The translations under genes and the position numbers were made by a program. DNA of 62,740 nt, taken from Flavobacteriaceae bacterium (GTDB lineage Bacteria > Bacteroidota > Bacteroidia > Flavobacteriales > Flavobacteriaceae). Below are positions 1 through 48,266 of the stretch, one piece after another. Numbering within the stretch: the stretch's first letter is position 1; every line of letters begins with the position of its first letter. Location of the stretch: positions 1 through 62,740 of the forward strand of contig PAJL01000108.1 in NCBI GenBank assembly GCA_002706045.1, read 5' to 3'. The notes under the pieces were generated by a model. The model ran no database searches and was not told the origin of the DNA. It saw only the letters and a list, made by a program, of their open reading frames with translations.

Positions 1-89
1 AATATTAATTTTAATTTGTTTGCAAATCATTTTATATCAGTTATTTAAGATAAATCATTTCGGAAATAAGGGATTCCCTCTTTCTCCGC
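1..89. repeat. Left attachment-site repeat (attL-like)
   Basis: Bases 1-89 are identical to 48178-48266. The two copies diverge directly after the shared CTCCGC: the left one continues into phage DNA and the right one into a chromosomal terminator. The end ATTCCCTCTTTCTCCGC resembles the 3' T-arm and acceptor of a tRNA-Ser (acceptor TTTCTCC followed by G73). The tRNA T-loop (TTCG) and everything 5' of it are missing from this copy, so no tRNA is encoded here. The repeat may extend left of the window. Confidence 0.9.
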
Positions 90-29928: not shown

Positions 29929-30126
29929 AGTCAGAATTACTATTCAATTCGGTCAGAAAACAATGTTGTATTTAGGTCTGTGTGATTGTGCCTCTCGCTT
30001 CCGGTACTGTCCGTATTACTATTAATCTTTCCAGTATGTCAAAAGTCTTTCCTTTTTGTCTAAATCACATTTTGGCCTTAATGCCTAAAACTCATGTTTT
30101 CGATTTCATCTATCTGGGTTGCGTTG

Positions 30127-30199
30127 TTGCGCGGACAGGATTCGAACCTGCGACCTTCGGATTATGAGACCGATGAGATGACCACTGCTCTACCGCACG
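30127..30199 (-). tRNA. tRNA-Met (CAT), initiator-like
   Basis: A 73-nt cloverleaf without encoded CCA. The anticodon loop is CTCATAA and the T-arm is GCAGG-TTCGAAT-CCTGT. The first acceptor pair is C1 x A72 (mismatch) and the D-stem has A11-U24, both marks of initiator tRNA. Sequence similarity to bacterial tRNA-fMet is evident (AGAGCAGTGG, CCGAAGGTCGCAGG). Odd points: 31-39 is T-T, so one of the three initiator G-C pairs is lost, and 13-22 is mismatched. It may be a divergent phage tRNA or a decaying one. The 449-base stretch 29896-30344 otherwise holds only its promoter and the terminator. Confidence 0.88.
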
Positions 30200-30344: not shown

Positions 30345-30602
30345 TTATACTTTAAGTGGTTTTATTTTTTCATTTAGTCCACTTGGAATTACCAACGGGT
30401 AATCATCTGTTATTTTCTGGGTTTCGTATAAAGCCATTTTGCTTATTCGCTCAACCTCTTTTTTTATTCTACCCATTTCAAATATTAATTTATCCTTTTG
30501 TTCTCTGGTTAAATCGCTAGTTGAACAAAACAGAAAATCAAAATATAGGTTATACTGCTTTATGAGTTTTATTCTTTTGGTATAGAAAGTTTCTGATCTC
30601 AT
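30345..30602 (-). CDS. Hypothetical 85-aa protein coupled to recombinase
   Basis: A helical basic protein (KRIKLIKQYNLYFDFLF, then a charged helix DKLIFEMGRIKKEVERI). The start overlaps the recombinase stop as TAATG, so the pair is co-translated and may act together. Not recognised. Confidence 0.5.
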   Translation of the reverse strand: MRSETFYTKRIKLIKQYNLYFDFLFCSTSDLTREQKDKLIFEMGRIKKEVERISKMALYETQKITDDYPLVIPSGLNEKIKPLKV

Positions 30603-31417
30603 TAACCAATGTCTTTTAATGTCAATACCATATCACTTAAAGATTCTTTACTTAGGTGATAATATCGTTGAGTTGATTTTGGTGATTTATGACCAGCAAA
30701 CTGTTGTACTTTCATAATATTATGTTTATTATCCATAAGATTTGTAAGCGCGGTATGTCTTAATAAATGCGGATAAACATGTTTGTTAGTTCTTATCTTT
30801 TTTACAACGTTTCTTATAGATGATTGCGAGTACTTTTTACCTTTTACAGTACTTTCAAATAAATAAGTTTCAGGTCGGTATTTTTTGTAGTAAATACGTA
30901 ACTCTTTTAAATCTCGATCAGTTATAGGAAAACGTCTTGATTTACCACCTTTACCGTTTTGTATTAGTATGCGATTATTTTCAGAATCAATATCTTCTAA
31001 AGTTATATTTTGAAGTTCTGATATGCGTAAAGCACCCACATACAATAAGTTTATTATACACCTATGCTTAATGTTATCAATTAATAAAAGACTATTTTTT
31101 ATTTCATCTACTGAAAGTATGTTAATTTCCTTTTTTGAATCTTCTTTGTATGGAATGTTTTTAAGTTTTTGAGGTTGTTCTAGTAACTTAAAAATAATTC
31201 TAACTGAAGATAACATTTGGTTGTAATAAGATACTGAATACTTCCTGCTGAAATTAACAAAATAAGTTTCAATATCATTAGCTGACATTCTGTAAATCCT
31301 ACTATTTGAACTAACAAACTTTTTAAAACAGCTTTTGTAGTTACTAATAGTATCTTTAGAGGTATAATTCAACTCTAAATAATTGTCATAATTTTTAAAA
31401 AGTTCTGTCAATTTCAT
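30602..31417 (-). CDS. XerC/D-type tyrosine recombinase
   Basis: The 271-aa site-specific recombinase has a complete active site: R131 (GALRISEL), K156 or K159 (GKGGKSR), H217-x-x-R220 (HLLRHTAL), H243 (GHKSPKS) and Y252 (QRYYHL). An N-terminal SAM-like domain covers 1-85. It is unrelated in detail to the prophage integrase at 204-1364. It borders the array of inverted-repeat elements that starts at 31465. The extra domain of integron integrases is not seen. Possible roles are cassette mobility, dimer resolution or an inversion switch. Confidence 0.85.
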   Translation of the reverse strand: MKLTELFKNYDNYLELNYTSKDTISNYKSCFKKFVSSNSRIYRMSANDIETYFVNFSRKYSVSYYNQMLSSVRIIFKLLEQPQKLKNIPYKEDSKKEINILSVDEIKNSLLLIDNIKHRCIINLLYVGALRISELQNITLEDIDSENNRILIQNGKGGKSRRFPITDRDLKELRIYYKKYRPETYLFESTVKGKKYSQSSIRNVVKKIRTNKHVYPHLLRHTALTNLMDNKHNIMKVQQFAGHKSPKSTQRYYHLSKESLSDMVLTLKDIG

Positions 31418-35817: not shown

Positions 35818-36504
35818 TTATAGTTGTTTTCTTTTTTCTTTTAACAGATAAACCCATTTAGCCTTTTCACTATCTTTTTGCCAGTCTATTATAAAATCCT
35901 CAAGCATTTGTCTATCCATATTTTTTGTGATATAGTCAACGTGTTTCTGGACTTTTTCTTTATGTTTTTTTTGTAATAACTTTTTCTTGTAACTAAATAT
36001 ATCTTCATCTGTCGCAGATTGCCTTAACTCTGGTTTAGGTTGGTTTTGTTCTCTTAAAATTGATTTTTGTTCCATGAACTGAGGAAACCATTCACCAAAA
36101 ATTAAGTTACTATCTATGCCTTTTTTTGCACTTCCAAATTTGCCTGATCGTGCCATCTTGAAAAACAAAATAATGTCTTCTAAACTTTCATAAGCAAAGT
36201 TTTCTAAAGTGTCTACGGTTAGTATTTCTACTTGAGAATCGTTTAACTTTGTTGAAAATGCGAAGGATTCTAAAAATCTATTCACTAGTACTTTTACAAC
36301 ACTAAAACCAATCTGACCTGTATCGCCTTTAAACACGCTTCGCATCTTTGCTTTGTTATCCGATTCAGCTAATGTTAAGCTCATTTCTATCATTGCTAGG
36401 CTTTGTTTTCCTTCAAGGATATCTTTACTTAAACTTAAACTGCTTTGCTGTTTCTGATTGCATAGCTTCTGAGAATACTTCTGTATTTGTTTTGTCTTTT
36501 CCAT
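35818..36504 (-). CDS. DUF6633-like phage replication-region protein
   Basis: The 228-aa helical protein contains LESFAFSTKLNDSQVEILTVDTL, EDIILFFKMARSGKFGSAKKGIDS and FMEQKSILREQ. From memory these are features of the DUF6633 group found beside replication initiators in Bacteroidetes phages. It may load or accompany helicase. It overlaps the upstream gene by 80 bases; an internal ATG at 36393 would remove the overlap. Its end appears to have displaced the start of the PAPS-like gene. Confidence 0.55.
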   Translation of the reverse strand: MEKTKQIQKYSQKLCNQKQQSSLSLSKDILEGKQSLAMIEMSLTLAESDNKAKMRSVFKGDTGQIGFSVVKVLVNRFLESFAFSTKLNDSQVEILTVDTLENFAYESLEDIILFFKMARSGKFGSAKKGIDSNLIFGEWFPQFMEQKSILREQNQPKPELRQSATDEDIFSYKKKLLQKKHKEKVQKHVDYITKNMDRQMLEDFIIDWQKDSEKAKWVYLLKEKRKQL

Positions 36505-37327
36505 CTGTTTTTTGAATTTCGATTTTTAGCCACCTGTTGAAATGTTTCTTAGCGTCCTTTACGGTCTTACATTCTTCACCGTCGCCTTTGATGAGTTTAA
36601 AGAATTGCTCTAGGTAGTTTTCTAATCTTTCCATGTTGAATCCTTTTCTAACTTCAGAGAAGTTTCTGCAAAGGCTTTCTTTCCATGTCACTTCATTTTC
36701 AAATTGTTTTTCTAAATCCGAAATGCTTAACAAGGTTTCAGGGTCTACAACGATGCTTAAAAGTTTTTCAGACTTTTCAAAAGTTTCTTCTTCATCTTTA
36801 ATATTACTTATATCTACATCTTTATCTATATCTATTAAAAGGTTAACCTTTTGGTTAACCAAATGGTTAACCAACTCTTTTAGTTTTTCTTTATCTTTTA
36901 ATTTGATAATATCCTCAGTGTCTAAGTCGTAAAGATGTTTTTTAAGTAAATTTATTGTTGTTTTTTCCACACCTAAATCTATCGCATACCTTACAACTAC
37001 ACCCATTGCAGAGCTTCTGTCTTTTCCTTTTTTATAGGATTTTCGCTTTTGAATAACATCTTTTGCAAAGTCATTTTCTAACCGTTGGTTATTATTTTGG
37101 TTAAACTTTTGGTTAACCACTTGGTCAACGAATTGGTTAAACCGTTCAAACTCGCTAGGACGAACTCTACATATACCTGCCATTTCATCTAAATCGGTTG
37201 GAACTGAGCCATTATCGAACTGATGTAGCAATAAATCGAAATACCATGCTCTAAATTCAGCTTTCATTCCGTTAGTTGCAGAAATCCATTGCGCTATATA
37301 TACTAATGCTGCTGGGTCTTTACTCAT
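36425..37327 (-). CDS. Replisome organiser/replication initiator-like protein
   Basis: The 300-aa protein has an N-terminal winged-helix-like domain (about 1-110: FRAWYFDLLLHQFDNGSVPTD, then AGICRVRPSEFERF) like DUF1376/replisome-organiser proteins. A low-complexity linker follows, and a C-terminal domain (about 210-290) ends in FNRWLKIEIQK, as in DnaT/helicase-loader proteins. Two clusters of 12-bp iterons lie inside the gene, as the origin lies inside lambda O. Its stop and start abut the helicase-MTase gene. Confidence 0.7.
   Translation of the reverse strand: MSKDPAALVYIAQWISATNGMKAEFRAWYFDLLLHQFDNGSVPTDLDEMAGICRVRPSEFERFNQFVDQVVNQKFNQNNNQRLENDFAKDVIQKRKSYKKGKDRSSAMGVVVRYAIDLGVEKTTINLLKKHLYDLDTEDIIKLKDKEKLKELVNHLVNQKVNLLIDIDKDVDISNIKDEEETFEKSEKLLSIVVDPETLLSISDLEKQFENEVTWKESLCRNFSEVRKGFNMERLENYLEQFFKLIKGDGEECKTVKDAKKHFNRWLKIEIQKTDGKDKTNTEVFSEAMQSETAKQFKFK
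36841..37143. repeat. Two clusters of 12-bp iterons (GGTTAACC), putative phage origin
   Basis: GGTTAACC occurs at 36841, 36853 and 36865. GGTTA/GGTCA units occur at 37087, 37099, 37111, 37123 and 37135. Both clusters have an exact 12-base period with TTTT or similar between units. They sit in the coding sequence of the replisome organiser, where they encode V-N and F-N repeats. I infer binding sites for that protein or the DnaA-like protein at 39991-40344. Confidence 0.65.
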
Positions 37328-39846
37328 TACGCTGTCTTTTCAAGTTCTTCCATATCAAAAAGCGTAGGCACGTTTAATTGATATTCAATAGATTTTAGAT
37401 AGAATAACCCATCATCATAATAATCAGGATTCAACTCTACAGCCCAAGCTTTGCGGTTCATTTTTACAGCTGTGTAAGGTGTACTGAATAACCCACCAAA
37501 AGGATCGCCAACTGTTTCACCTGGATTAGAATATTGAAATACCAATCGCTCAATAATATCTAACTGAAGTGGGCAAATATGCTTTTCCTTTTTACGATTC
37601 TTCTGGTTAGCGTTTAGAGTTTTTAATCGGTTAACGTCGTTCATTACGTCTGGTCCTGTTGGTCTATTCATTAAGCTCATCATCTTTTTTGAGAGCTTTC
37701 CTGCCTTGTCTAAAGTTTCACAAGCATCTAAGTGTAGTTGATAATCGTATGGAACTACACGGCAGTATTCTTTCCACCATGCGTAAATGGTTTTAGGATT
37801 TAACTGTTCGGCTTGTTCTAAGGTTAAAAATCGATTACCGTTGCTTTGCCATATCGCATGAGCGTCTAACTGCCATTTAGCTAAAGTGTATTCTTCTTTA
37901 GACTTGTTAACAGGTAAATCTGCATAAGCATTTTTATCATCGCTTGGTGATTTTCTGAATAACAGAATGTACTCAGGTAATCCGCAGCCCATTTTAGTAC
38001 TATCCTTAACCAATTCACCCCAAGTTAATCGGTAAGTTTGGTTATTCTCTTGTACTACATCAGTAGGTACTGTGATTTTTCCTATAAGATGAAAACCGTG
38101 CTTTGTAAAGCTTCTTACGGTTTCACCACTAAAATCATCTATTGTGGTGTAACTGATATTTTTTTGATAACCATAACGGATCCTATCTTTTACATGAACC
38201 GCACATATACGTCCTGGCATAAGCTTATCCAGTAACTTTGGCACGAGATAATCCATCTGCTCAAAAAAGCCTTCGTTTGTTGGATTGTGTCCAAAGTCGT
38301 TATAGTTGTTAGAATATTCGTAGTGATTACCGAACGGAATAGAGGTTACAATCAATCCGGTTGAATTGTTTTCTATCTTATCTAGTTCAATTGTGCAATC
38401 GCCATTATATACCGTTGCATTACCGACTGTGTGAATTCTGGTATCGTTAAATATTTTTCGTTTCATATCGCTTGAGAGTTTATTATTATTTAGTCCGTAA
38501 TTTCTAACGAGGTTTATCATTTCGGTTTGAAGCTCTACATGTCGCTTCCATTTAGCTTTAAGTTCTTTAAGCACCTCACGCTCGTTTTGGGTGTGAATGA
38601 TGTAGATGTAAACTTCTTTAGATTGCTTAAATCTGTAGATGCGGTGAACTGCTTGTATAAAGTCGTTGAACTTATAATCGATGCCAACAAATATGGCACG
38701 GTTGCAATGGTGCTGAAAGTTACATCCACTACCAGCAATCTGAGGTTTTGTAGATAGTATTTGATAGCGACCTTCTGAATAATCGATTAACAGTTTTTCT
38801 TTTAAGTCGTTGGATTGACTACCATAAACCGATTTTAAAACGACATTATCAGGGCATCTTTTTTCGATGGCCATGCGCTCGGCTTCTCTATGATGCCATA
38901 GAATAACATTAGAGTTCTGAAATTCATTTTCTATGATTTCAAAGGCTTTGTTAACTCTAAGTTCTACGGTTTCAGATTTCTCTCTGGCTGTGTCGTTAAG
39001 GCTCTTTGTTACGTCCTTAAACATTACCAAATCACCATCCTTGTTTATAATTGGTTTACCTGTTAAGTTTTCAACTTCAATTTCATGGATATGCATTTTT
39101 GGTAGGTCATAACCTTCATCACTATAACCTAAATCTGAAGGTTTGTTAATGAACACAGCCCAACTGCTAACCCATTTCCAGAATTCATCTTTTTGAGTGT
39201 CGTTAATTTTTAAGTTTCCTGCCTTTTTAGAATCACGTTTAAAGAATTGCGTTAGTGCATGACCTCTATCAATAACACCTAGAAACTGAGCATAGTTTAA
39301 AATCTCTATGTAGTTATTTGGTGTAGGTGTTGCTGTAAATACAAATCGATACGGTACTTTTCCGAAATGCTCTAAAACATAGTTTGTGGTTTCGGTCTTT
39401 AGGTTTCTTAAAACTGATGCTTCGTCAAATGATACACCACCGAATTTAGAGGCATCTATATCACCTTTACGGATGCGCTCGTAGTTGGTAAGGTAAATTT
39501 TAGGTTGAAAGTCGTCTATTGTATCAGTGTCAGTGATATACTGTATTTCAACATCTGAGCCTAAGAGTTCATTATCTCTTTTAAACTCGCCAATAACACC
39601 AAGCGGTAAACCAATTAAGAATGGTTTGTTGGTTTTTTTAATGATTTGTTGTGCAATAGCCAACTGCATTACGGTTTTTCCTAATCCAAATGAAGCAAAC
39701 ACAGCTCTACGTCCACCTTCAATAGCCCATTTAGTAATGTCTTTTTGGTGTGGTAGCATGATTTCTGGCAGAACATCTGTTGTTATTTCAAAGCCGTAAT
39801 TCTCTGCTAGTATGATTTTGTTTTCTAAGAATTCTATGTAATCCAT
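37327..39846 (-). CDS. Fused SNF2/DEAD-like helicase and DNA methyltransferase
   Basis: In the 839-aa protein the helicase part (about 25-445) has Walker A SFGLGKT (52-58), Walker B DEAS (141-144), motif III TATPTPNN (171-178) and motif VI HRIYRFKQ (401-408). The methyltransferase part (about 470-839) has motif IV as TSIPFG (501-506, a variant of TSPPY) and motif I DPFGG (781-785) after it. That is the beta-class order of N4-C/N6-A enzymes. It probably remodels and modifies phage DNA during replication or evades restriction. One base separates it from its neighbours. Confidence 0.85.
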   Translation of the reverse strand: MDYIEFLENKIILAENYGFEITTDVLPEIMLPHQKDITKWAIEGGRRAVFASFGLGKTVMQLAIAQQIIKKTNKPFLIGLPLGVIGEFKRDNELLGSDVEIQYITDTDTIDDFQPKIYLTNYERIRKGDIDASKFGGVSFDEASVLRNLKTETTNYVLEHFGKVPYRFVFTATPTPNNYIEILNYAQFLGVIDRGHALTQFFKRDSKKAGNLKINDTQKDEFWKWVSSWAVFINKPSDLGYSDEGYDLPKMHIHEIEVENLTGKPIINKDGDLVMFKDVTKSLNDTAREKSETVELRVNKAFEIIENEFQNSNVILWHHREAERMAIEKRCPDNVVLKSVYGSQSNDLKEKLLIDYSEGRYQILSTKPQIAGSGCNFQHHCNRAIFVGIDYKFNDFIQAVHRIYRFKQSKEVYIYIIHTQNEREVLKELKAKWKRHVELQTEMINLVRNYGLNNNKLSSDMKRKIFNDTRIHTVGNATVYNGDCTIELDKIENNSTGLIVTSIPFGNHYEYSNNYNDFGHNPTNEGFFEQMDYLVPKLLDKLMPGRICAVHVKDRIRYGYQKNISYTTIDDFSGETVRSFTKHGFHLIGKITVPTDVVQENNQTYRLTWGELVKDSTKMGCGLPEYILLFRKSPSDDKNAYADLPVNKSKEEYTLAKWQLDAHAIWQSNGNRFLTLEQAEQLNPKTIYAWWKEYCRVVPYDYQLHLDACETLDKAGKLSKKMMSLMNRPTGPDVMNDVNRLKTLNANQKNRKKEKHICPLQLDIIERLVFQYSNPGETVGDPFGGLFSTPYTAVKMNRKAWAVELNPDYYDDGLFYLKSIEYQLNVPTLFDMEELEKTA

Positions 39847-40001
39847 TAGGCTAACATTTTTAATTTATTATCTAATACTTTTCTCACTTTGTCTTTGTGT
39901 ATTCCTGTTATTTTAGAAATGTTTTTAAGGCTGTTATCTTGCAATACATCAAACCAATACAAAACTATATCTGTGGTTATGGGATGGTATCTATCTGCCA
40001 T
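39846..40001 (-). CDS. Small HTH protein (51 aa)
   Basis: Frame ATG 40001 to TAA 39846, overlapping the helicase-MTase start as TAATG and the DnaA-like stop by 11 bases. NSLKNISKITGIHKDKVRKVLD is a helix-turn-helix. It could regulate or assist the replication genes. Confidence 0.6.
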   Translation of the reverse strand: MADRYHPITTDIVLYWFDVLQDNSLKNISKITGIHKDKVRKVLDNKLKMLA

Positions 40002-40344
40002 TTTTAAACCTTTCAATTTTCTTTATTACTGATCTTACTTTTTCGGTATTTGGAAGTGTTTTAATAATGTTTAAAACTTCTTCTCTTACTTCTGAATTAA
40101 ATTGTACTAACCCTTCTATTCGGTTTATAGAATATATTACTGTGCAGTGTGTAAATGGCTCAGTACTTTTAAAACTTCCTATGGTTTTTAGTGATACATG
40201 ATAGCCTATTATTAGCCTTGAGATATATTGAAACAATTGTCTTACATAAGCTCTACGTCTGCAGGTGTCTTTTACTACAATGTAATCTTCATCTAACTTG
40301 TAGAAATCTGTAACACATTGGTATATGGTATTTAGATTTATCAT
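39991..40344 (-). CDS. DnaA domain IV-like DNA-binding protein
   Basis: The 117-aa protein contains RRRAYVRQLFQYISRLIIGY, then SLKTIGSF and HCTVIYSINRI. This is the layout of the DnaA C-terminal HTH, in which a basic loop and an H-[CST]-T-V recognition helix bind origin boxes. No ATPase domain is present. Next to the iteron-bearing initiator, it probably binds the phage origin. Confidence 0.72.
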   Translation of the reverse strand: MINLNTIYQCVTDFYKLDEDYIVVKDTCRRRAYVRQLFQYISRLIIGYHVSLKTIGSFKSTEPFTHCTVIYSINRIEGLVQFNSEVREEVLNIIKTLPNTEKVRSVIKKIERFKNGR

Positions 40345-46836: not shown

Positions 46837-47520
46837 ATGATTGATTTTAAAAGGATTAGAAAAGAAAAAAACATGACCCAAACCGAGTTTGCAAAGCTTA
46901 TAGGTGTGTCTTTAAGGTCTATTCAATCTTATGAAAAAGGAAATACGAAACCTTCTGCGGATGTTCTTATGAAGATTATGAATTTTGATACGAATAATGA
47001 TGCGTATTTAAATAATGATGTTTTAAATAAAACCAATGAACCAGATGCTATTTGGGTTAATTATGAAAGTTTTATGCTTGTACCAATGGTAAGTCATAGA
47101 GCACAAGCTGGTTTTTTGAGTGGTTGGGGTGATGAGGATTATTTAGAAGAATTACCAAAAGTACCTTGGGAAGTAGATAAAGAATATAAAGGTAAGTACA
47201 TGACCTTTGAAGTTTCTGGTGAAAGCATGGAAAGTGAGGACGACCCTAGAGATAGTCTTTATGAAGGTGATTTACTATTATGTAGAGAGGTGATGCGTCA
47301 ACATTGGCAAAACAAGTTGCATATTAATAAGTGGGATTTTATAATAGTGCATAGAGAACAAGGTATATTAGCTAAAAGAATTACTAAGCATGATACCGTA
47401 AATGGAACTTTAACACTTCATAGCTTAAATCCTTACTATGAGGACCAGACAGTTAACCTAGACGACCTTATAGCTATTTTTAATATTATAGATGTAAAAC
47501 GATCCCGTAAAAGAAGATAA
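46837..47520 (+). CDS. Phage repressor, HTH plus S24 (LexA/CI-type) peptidase
   Basis: The 227-aa protein keeps the lysogenic state. The N-terminal HTH is MTQTEFAKLIGVSLRSIQSYEKG (about 13-35). The C-terminal S24 domain has the cleavage bond A91-G92 in RAQAGF, catalytic S130 in SGESM and K180 in LAKRI. It is therefore inducible by RecA after DNA damage. Divergent from the early operon with shared operators. Confidence 0.9.
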   Translation: MIDFKRIRKEKNMTQTEFAKLIGVSLRSIQSYEKGNTKPSADVLMKIMNFDTNNDAYLNNDVLNKTNEPDAIWVNYESFMLVPMVSHRAQAGFLSGWGDEDYLEELPKVPWEVDKEYKGKYMTFEVSGESMESEDDPRDSLYEGDLLLCREVMRQHWQNKLHINKWDFIIVHREQGILAKRITKHDTVNGTLTLHSLNPYYEDQTVNLDDLIAIFNIIDVKRSRKRR

Positions 47521-48177: not shown

Positions 48178-48266
48178 AATATTAATTTTAATTTGTTTGC
48201 AAATCATTTTATATCAGTTATTTAAGATAAATCATTTCGGAAATAAGGGATTCCCTCTTTCTCCGC
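48178..48266. repeat. Right attachment-site repeat (attR-like)
   Basis: Identical to 1-89. Followed directly by a chromosomal terminator, as expected where the 3' end of a host RNA gene was the target. The tRNA-like part is only the last ~17 bases. Confidence 0.9.

Follow-up and report, generated by a model that had tools for sequence, protein, structure and literature searches.

Iteron-like repeats inside a DUF1376 gene of a flavobacterial prophage: a probable replication origin within its own initiator gene

Introduction

Replication origins that lie inside the gene of their own initiator are already known from phage lambda (gene O), phage SPP1 (gene 38) and RepA_N plasmids. In lambda, iterons and an AT-rich tract are described in the central part of initiator gene O (PMC7466680), and the annotation of J02459 gives one array of four 18-bp iterons with steps of 20-24 nt. 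For SPP1, the account in PMC6316719 places direct repeats within the initiator gene 38, together with an AT-rich unwinding element (gp38/oriL), and mentions a second origin, oriR. In RepA_N plasmids such as pSK41, according to PMC5703833, the N-terminal domain of the initiator binds Rep boxes in the middle of the rep gene, the origin DNA encodes the linker of the protein, and the structures resemble DnaD. The Rac prophage of E. coli is reported to have an active origin, oriJ (PMC3945230); neither its map position nor its placement in ydaU was found in the open-access literature searched, and that literature gave no description of an origin for the DUF1376 phage primosomal family.

Here we describe a prophage gene that is best read, by analogy with these systems, as carrying an in-gene origin, but one located in a DUF1376 gene. 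Like lambda O it appears to hold iterons inside an initiator gene, and like SPP1 gene 38 it has direct repeats, here next to a candidate AT-rich unwinding element. It differs from lambda in its 12-nt step (11-12 nt in relatives), in encoding a DUF1376 protein, and in having two arrays, one of which sits inside the coding sequence of the predicted DNA-binding domain, as it does in some relatives. It differs from RepA_N systems in the two arrays, in the lack of a RepA_N domain by sequence and in belonging to a phage, not a plasmid. The repeat unit, moreover, changes from phage to phage.

Results and Discussion

The window, that is the whole stretch of 62,740 nucleotides that was analysed, is part of contig C108, in an assembly of 2.8 Mb that is 73.6% complete. 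About 48 kb of it reads as a prophage, with structural genes between an integrase-like and a repressor-like gene (all named from their translations), and an 89-bp exact direct repeat is found at its ends. Since the contig starts exactly at this repeat, the repeat may represent an att core, or an assembly overlap derived from an excised circular form.

1..89, plus strand: 89-bp direct repeat, copy 1; adjoins the integrase-like gene; candidate att site, or else an overlap of the contig end
204-1364: integrase-like gene
46837-47520: repressor-like gene
48178..48266, plus strand: 89-bp direct repeat, copy 2; candidate other prophage end

A tRNA-Met (30126-30199) and a second tyrosine-recombinase-like gene (30602-31417, from reading the translation) were also observed inside the prophage. 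The candidate initiator gene, its repeats and its neighbours are as follows.

35818..36504, minus strand: overlapping downstream gene, 228 aa, no assigned function; phrog_35728 at E 5.5e-6, DUF6633 only at E 0.036
36425..37327, minus strand: candidate initiator gene, 300 aa; DUF1376 predicted winged helix, helical region, disordered linker, DUF7833
36781..36840, minus strand: AT-rich tract, candidate unwinding element; 82% A+T (whole gene 67%); borders the linker array directly
36839..36874 (copies 36841-36872), minus strand: linker array of candidate iterons, three GGTTAACC with a 12-nt step; codons about 152-163
37085..37144, minus strand: wing array of candidate iterons, five partly degenerate units, one of them an exact GGTTAACC, with a 12-nt step; codons 62-81
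37327..39846, minus strand: helicase-methyltransferase fusion, 839 aa; phrog_16 at E 1.6e-98, N6_N4_Mtase and SNF2-related domains; adjoins the initiator gene
39991..40344, minus strand: protein of 117 aa, in part DnaA domain IV-like; Bac_DnaA_C at E 3.4e-7, 30.6 bits, below the Pfam cut-off of 31.5

The 228-aa gene occupies the position where some relatives have helicase or loader genes.

In the 300-aa protein, Pfam detected DUF1376 at residues 10-79 (E 2.8e-7; 31.2 bits, above the curated cut-off of 30.1) and DUF7833 at residues 214-269 (E 8.1e-14). The protein resembles the phage 'primosomal protein' phrog_3992 (E 2.6e-6), its only other PHROG match being phrog_12767 at E 0.041, and a relative of 28% identity, L114, matches the O-like phrog_345 in its C-terminal part (E 1.4e-21). 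The AlphaFold model, with a mean pLDDT of 83.6, comprises a confident N-terminal domain, a helical middle, a disordered stretch at 168-195 and a helical C-terminal part. On this model, we read the N-terminal domain as a winged helix. In BFVD it matches a DUF1376 protein best (E 1.4e-4; 97 columns at rmsd 1.9), and it aligned weakly with 4pql (Z 5.6), 5kbj (5.2) and 4pt7 (5.0), which we take to be RepA_N proteins, and with DnaD (2v79, 5.5); these rows, at Z 5.0-5.6, stand among other winged helices and below ORC2 and unrelated MLLE rows. For residues 97-168 the top VIA rows were poly(A)-binding MLLE domains, which we took as a chance helical match. Pfam gave no RepA_N match in the 300-aa protein up to E 0.1, no solved structure was matched by sequence, and Foldseek of the PDB gave no match at E<=0.001.

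Counting its own genome, the window protein was matched in 6 of 299 genomes from its family, and among 395 genomes of the phylum, again with its own, DUF1376 was found in three and DUF7833 in four. Each of two queries had a single weak match among annotated phages, and a 71-residue query had none among plasmids. A profile search of genomes yielded 11 loci, nine flavobacterial by name, one from Saprospiraceae and one from Verrucomicrobiaceae.

A sequence-only reading had reported eight units with an exact 12-base period in this gene, and the window sequence confirms them. Copies of GGTTAACC start at 36841, 36853 and 36865, and a second set consists of GGTTATTA (37087), GGTTAAAC (37099), GGTTAACC (37111), GGTCAACG (37123) and GGTTAAAC (37135), the step being exactly 12 nt in both. 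On the model, the codons of the second set correspond to a helix (57-74) and the hairpin that follows it, which we read as the wing. All four occurrences of GGTTAACC in the window fall inside the gene at 36425-37327, a count reached in none of 100 dinucleotide shuffles. GTTAAC-6 nt-GTTAAC occurs twice in the window against 0.03 expected, and GGTTAACCNNNNGGTTAACC is found in the 2.8-Mb assembly at this gene only; a looser unit, TTGGTTAACCAA with up to three mismatches, showed no excess across the whole window (68 vs 56). The AT-rich tract encodes the start of the disordered linker, and on the array's far side the A+T content is 75% over 60 nt; the AT peak of the window gene does not exceed that expected from the encoded protein (p 0.57).

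In order to compare this layout across the family, we assembled 98 loci (L140-L230, L003-L005, L008-L010 and L114), the viral relatives examined being the best 80 of at least 556 that a profile search gave among 600 stretches of viral contigs. Eight loci (L165, L168, L169, L173, L201, L218, L228 and L230) were without a gene by our filter. Removal of identical proteins gave 79 genes, and a shared 4-mer filter gave 61 non-redundant ones; layout, wing-linker matching and the comparison of units with domains were studied in the 60 that are 190 aa or longer.

Repeats in these 60 genes lie mainly in the wing and the linker. Pairs 11 or 12 nt apart numbered 95 in the wing (10.9 expected) and 216 in the linker (50.5 expected), against 25 elsewhere (10.7 expected); counted strictly, such pairs were present in both parts in 12 genes, in the linker and not the wing in 33, in the wing and not the linker in 2, and in neither in 13. 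The units vary among phages, and include GGTTAACC, GCGACCCTT, GCTACCCTT/GCTATGCTT, ACGAACGTA, a CATATG-centred unit and ACAATTGT. Within a gene, wing and linker match each other: they have 254 8-mers in common, against a permutation mean of 74.9 and a maximum of 137 in 10,000, and 30 of the 60 genes have at least three in common. In L229, the wing unit GCGACCCTT is reverse-complemented in the linker (11 8-mers in common inverted, 0 direct), and the linker copies of L148 are likewise reverse-complemented.

The surroundings of the linker arrays are AT-rich. For 33 such arrays, the A+T content of the adjoining 60 nt exceeded the gene mean downstream in 30 and upstream in 28, with downstream above upstream in 20, and the middle half of AT peak locations spans 0.51-0.63 of the gene in relatives vs 0.21-0.78 in controls. 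In several relatives the gene has replication genes as neighbours. Of 15 relatives viewed, nine were picked for a scan of their downstream genes, and five of these gave a helicase or loader, namely DnaB (L153, L184, L187), a primase-helicase (L190) and an IstB/DnaC-like ATPase (L176); L140 matched DUF6633 and L148 weakly matched a STAND NTPase, and the scans of L145 (second ORF scanned) and L180 were without a match.

It could be argued that the units are real binding sites of the gene's own protein that act as an operator or in copy control, through autorepression, looping or handcuffing between arrays, with the origin elsewhere. The presence of two separate arrays in the window gene and in some relatives, their at times opposite orientation, which suits looping, and the location of one array within the very sequence that codes for the DNA-binding domain would agree with such a role. 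However, the gene resembles replication families, helicase or loader genes stand next to it in more than half of the relatives scanned, and the layout matches that of known origins inside initiator genes. We consider a purely regulatory role unlikely, and the replication origin remains the reading that we follow below.

Because a repeated peptide, here [V/F]NQx, can yield a DNA repeat, the gene was compared with 20,000 versions of itself in which synonymous codons had been shuffled. The four exact GGTTAACC (mean 0.17), the six with at most one mismatch (mean 1.6) and the best 12-spaced run were each reached in none of the 20,000 shuffles, and GTTAAC occurred four times against 1.25 (p 0.005); with up to two mismatches, GGTTAACC was not in significant excess (9 vs 6.0, p 0.064). 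The excess over the shuffles indicates that the exact units are a DNA-level feature and not a protein repeat alone.

Loss of the DNA repeats in homologues that keep the amino acids had been named as counting against iterons, and in the nearest informative relative the opposite was observed. L005, which is 55% identical, has a rearranged linker peptide (VLNQKVNHLVNL where the window gene has LVNHLVNQKVNL) and nevertheless keeps three 12-nt units, two exact GGTTAACC and one CTTAACC, whereas among more distant relatives some keep GGTTAACC in part, some have other units and some show none by the tests used. At residues common to the window gene and L005, codons were identical at 14/18 positions in the iterons vs 62/131 elsewhere (one-sided p 0.014); the corresponding values were 14/17 vs 62/125 for L004 and L005 (p 0.0095) and 13/18 vs 66/128 for L003 and L005 (p 0.08).

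Constraint at the DNA level was also observed across the family. Local 8-mer repeats were in excess (p<0.01) in 35 of 79 distinct genes vs 10 of 214 flanking ORFs, and DNA-level repeats, at the same threshold, in 25 of 61 non-redundant genes vs 10 of 169 flanking ORFs (odds ratio 11). The other 44 of the 79 miss p<0.01 singly, including L114 (p 0.71) despite its two GGTTAACC, and a de novo unit count was weak, the observed value being reached in 0/25 shuffles in 8 of the 79 genes. Exact 7-mer repeats were raised at spacings of 11 nt (70 vs 6.8) and 12 nt (280 vs 67), and not at 9 or 15 nt, which are also codon multiples (1 vs 5.7 and 1 vs 7.1). Up to 17 nt, 11 and 12 nt alone stand out; 18, 24 and 36 nt were raised too, and control ORFs were raised at 12, 18, 30 and 36 nt. 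Out-of-frame repeats were in excess in the family (173 vs 82), the excess in controls being smaller (218 vs 156), and an exact 8-mer was repeated at 11 nt in 17 of 61 family genes vs 4 of 169 controls. Since 11 nt shifts the reading frame, a repeated peptide cannot be the source of these repeats. The unit of L209 lies at 138, 149 and 160 (one mismatch allowed), hence in three reading frames, its count not being significant singly (p 0.76).

Selection of a repeated peptide ([V/F]NQx; NENEN) in the protein, with the DNA repeat as a by-product or as recent slippage, is on this evidence very improbable. It would suit the in-frame position of the window units, whose step equals four codons, the partial recurrence in relatives of wing residues such as KFNQ, and the repeat excess of flanking control genes at some codon-multiple distances; but it is opposed by the synonymous-shuffle excess in the window gene, contradicted at the family level by the 11-nt arrays, and at odds with wing-linker matching and with inverted copies that code for other residues.

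The pattern GGTTAACN5GGTTAAC is not by itself diagnostic of the family. It was found in at least 120 viral-contig stretches, most of which are, by eye, unrelated genes, VNPxVNP repeat proteins or ORF-less. The matches listed contained 85 ORFs, of which 74 were aligned (L078, L091, L094, L097, L099, L101, L104, L105, L110, L112 and L115 were left out), and among these DUF1376 was found in 4/74 and DUF7833 in 3/74. A terminase small subunit family also contains GTTAAC units at a 12-nt distance (L111 and L121 by phrog_1206; L020, L045, L053, L086 and L126 grouped by eye on the peptide that surrounds the repeat), and such repeats within terS could serve as a packaging site. GGTTAAC pairs also occur, in a different frame (GLTxGLT), in two other candidate replication-initiation genes, L065, which matches the O-like phrog_345, and L084, which matches DUF1376 only below its cut-off.

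The excess-repeat test applied to the family detects lambda O (24 vs 3.0) and not lambda P (2 vs 1.75), and TP901-1 rep gives only a weak pass (p 0.021). In E. coli the Rac gene ydaU, which is annotated as DUF1376, also passes (12 vs 2.75), and ydaV fails. Like the window gene, ydaU is a DUF1376 gene with in-gene repeats; it has AT-rich DNA after the repeats (by eye), and a DnaC/IstB-like gene is next. Its unit, however, is another one, TGTTCAAACA, present in three exact copies (two direct, one inverted; offsets 33 and 23 nt) after the N-terminal domain, and its N-terminal part has two-mismatch matches only; with up to two mismatches the ydaU units showed no excess (p 0.16). The E. coli unit is absent from L304, a YdaU relative of 59% identity (p 0.39), and L294 gave p 0.12 in the repeat test. 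In ten of the 25 E. coli rows listed (H17-H26), the match to ydaU begins only at about nt 485-497, a pattern that would suit exchange of the repeat-bearing N-terminal part as a cassette.

Unit type was not found to co-vary overall with the identity of the DNA-binding domain (rho 0.04), although unit sharing was raised in the N-terminal identity bins above 70% and, oddly, at 25-35%. The proximity of a DnaA domain IV-like gene, to which attention had been drawn, carries little weight. The 117-aa gene lies about 2.7 kb away, and its match falls short of the cut-off. L003 has a 117-aa homologue at 2506-2859 (judged by eye). That the repeats are sites for another factor (the 117-aa protein, host DnaA or a repressor) could draw on this nearby gene and on unit sharing that does not track the N-terminal domain overall, yet it is highly improbable given that DnaA boxes are not enriched (18 vs 20.5 expected, one mismatch allowed), that L005 keeps its array while no DnaA_C-like ORF was seen by eye among its ORFs of at least 90 aa, and that matched arrays recur in the DUF1376 gene across phages with differing next genes.

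Conclusions

Iterons inside an initiator gene, with the parallel to lambda, remain the best-supported reading of this locus, in view of the synonymous-shuffle excess and of relatives that carry repeats. We propose that the repeats are probably iterons bound by the gene's own product, and that this gene segment is the replication origin of the prophage. On this view the linker array, and probably the wing array too, would be bound by the N-terminal winged helix, which would recognise units of 12 nt (of 11 or 12 nt in relatives); since the units are about one helical turn apart, they would lie on one face of the DNA. The protein-DNA complex may then melt the AT-rich tract next to the linker array, and a helicase or its loader would be recruited by the C-terminal part, so that a fork could start at this segment.

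A wider generalisation is possible, and we offer it tentatively. Phage initiators whose gene contains the origin may make up a large clade that is mostly uncultured; in a subset the origin would have two parts, with an array in the DNA-binding domain and a matching linker array among AT-rich DNA. The unit would turn over fast while its placement and near-helical spacing stay fixed. Looping between the two arrays, which are sometimes in inverted orientation, may serve to control firing, and the origin would move together with its specificity as a single cassette.

Such a reading turns a 'domain of unknown function' family into a testable class of initiators, and the origins of many uncultured phages would become readable from their sequence. 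A stretch that codes for a DNA-binding domain and apparently holds that domain's own target would be an unusual case of overlapping constraint, and the turnover of units would offer a natural experiment on the joint change of initiators and origins.
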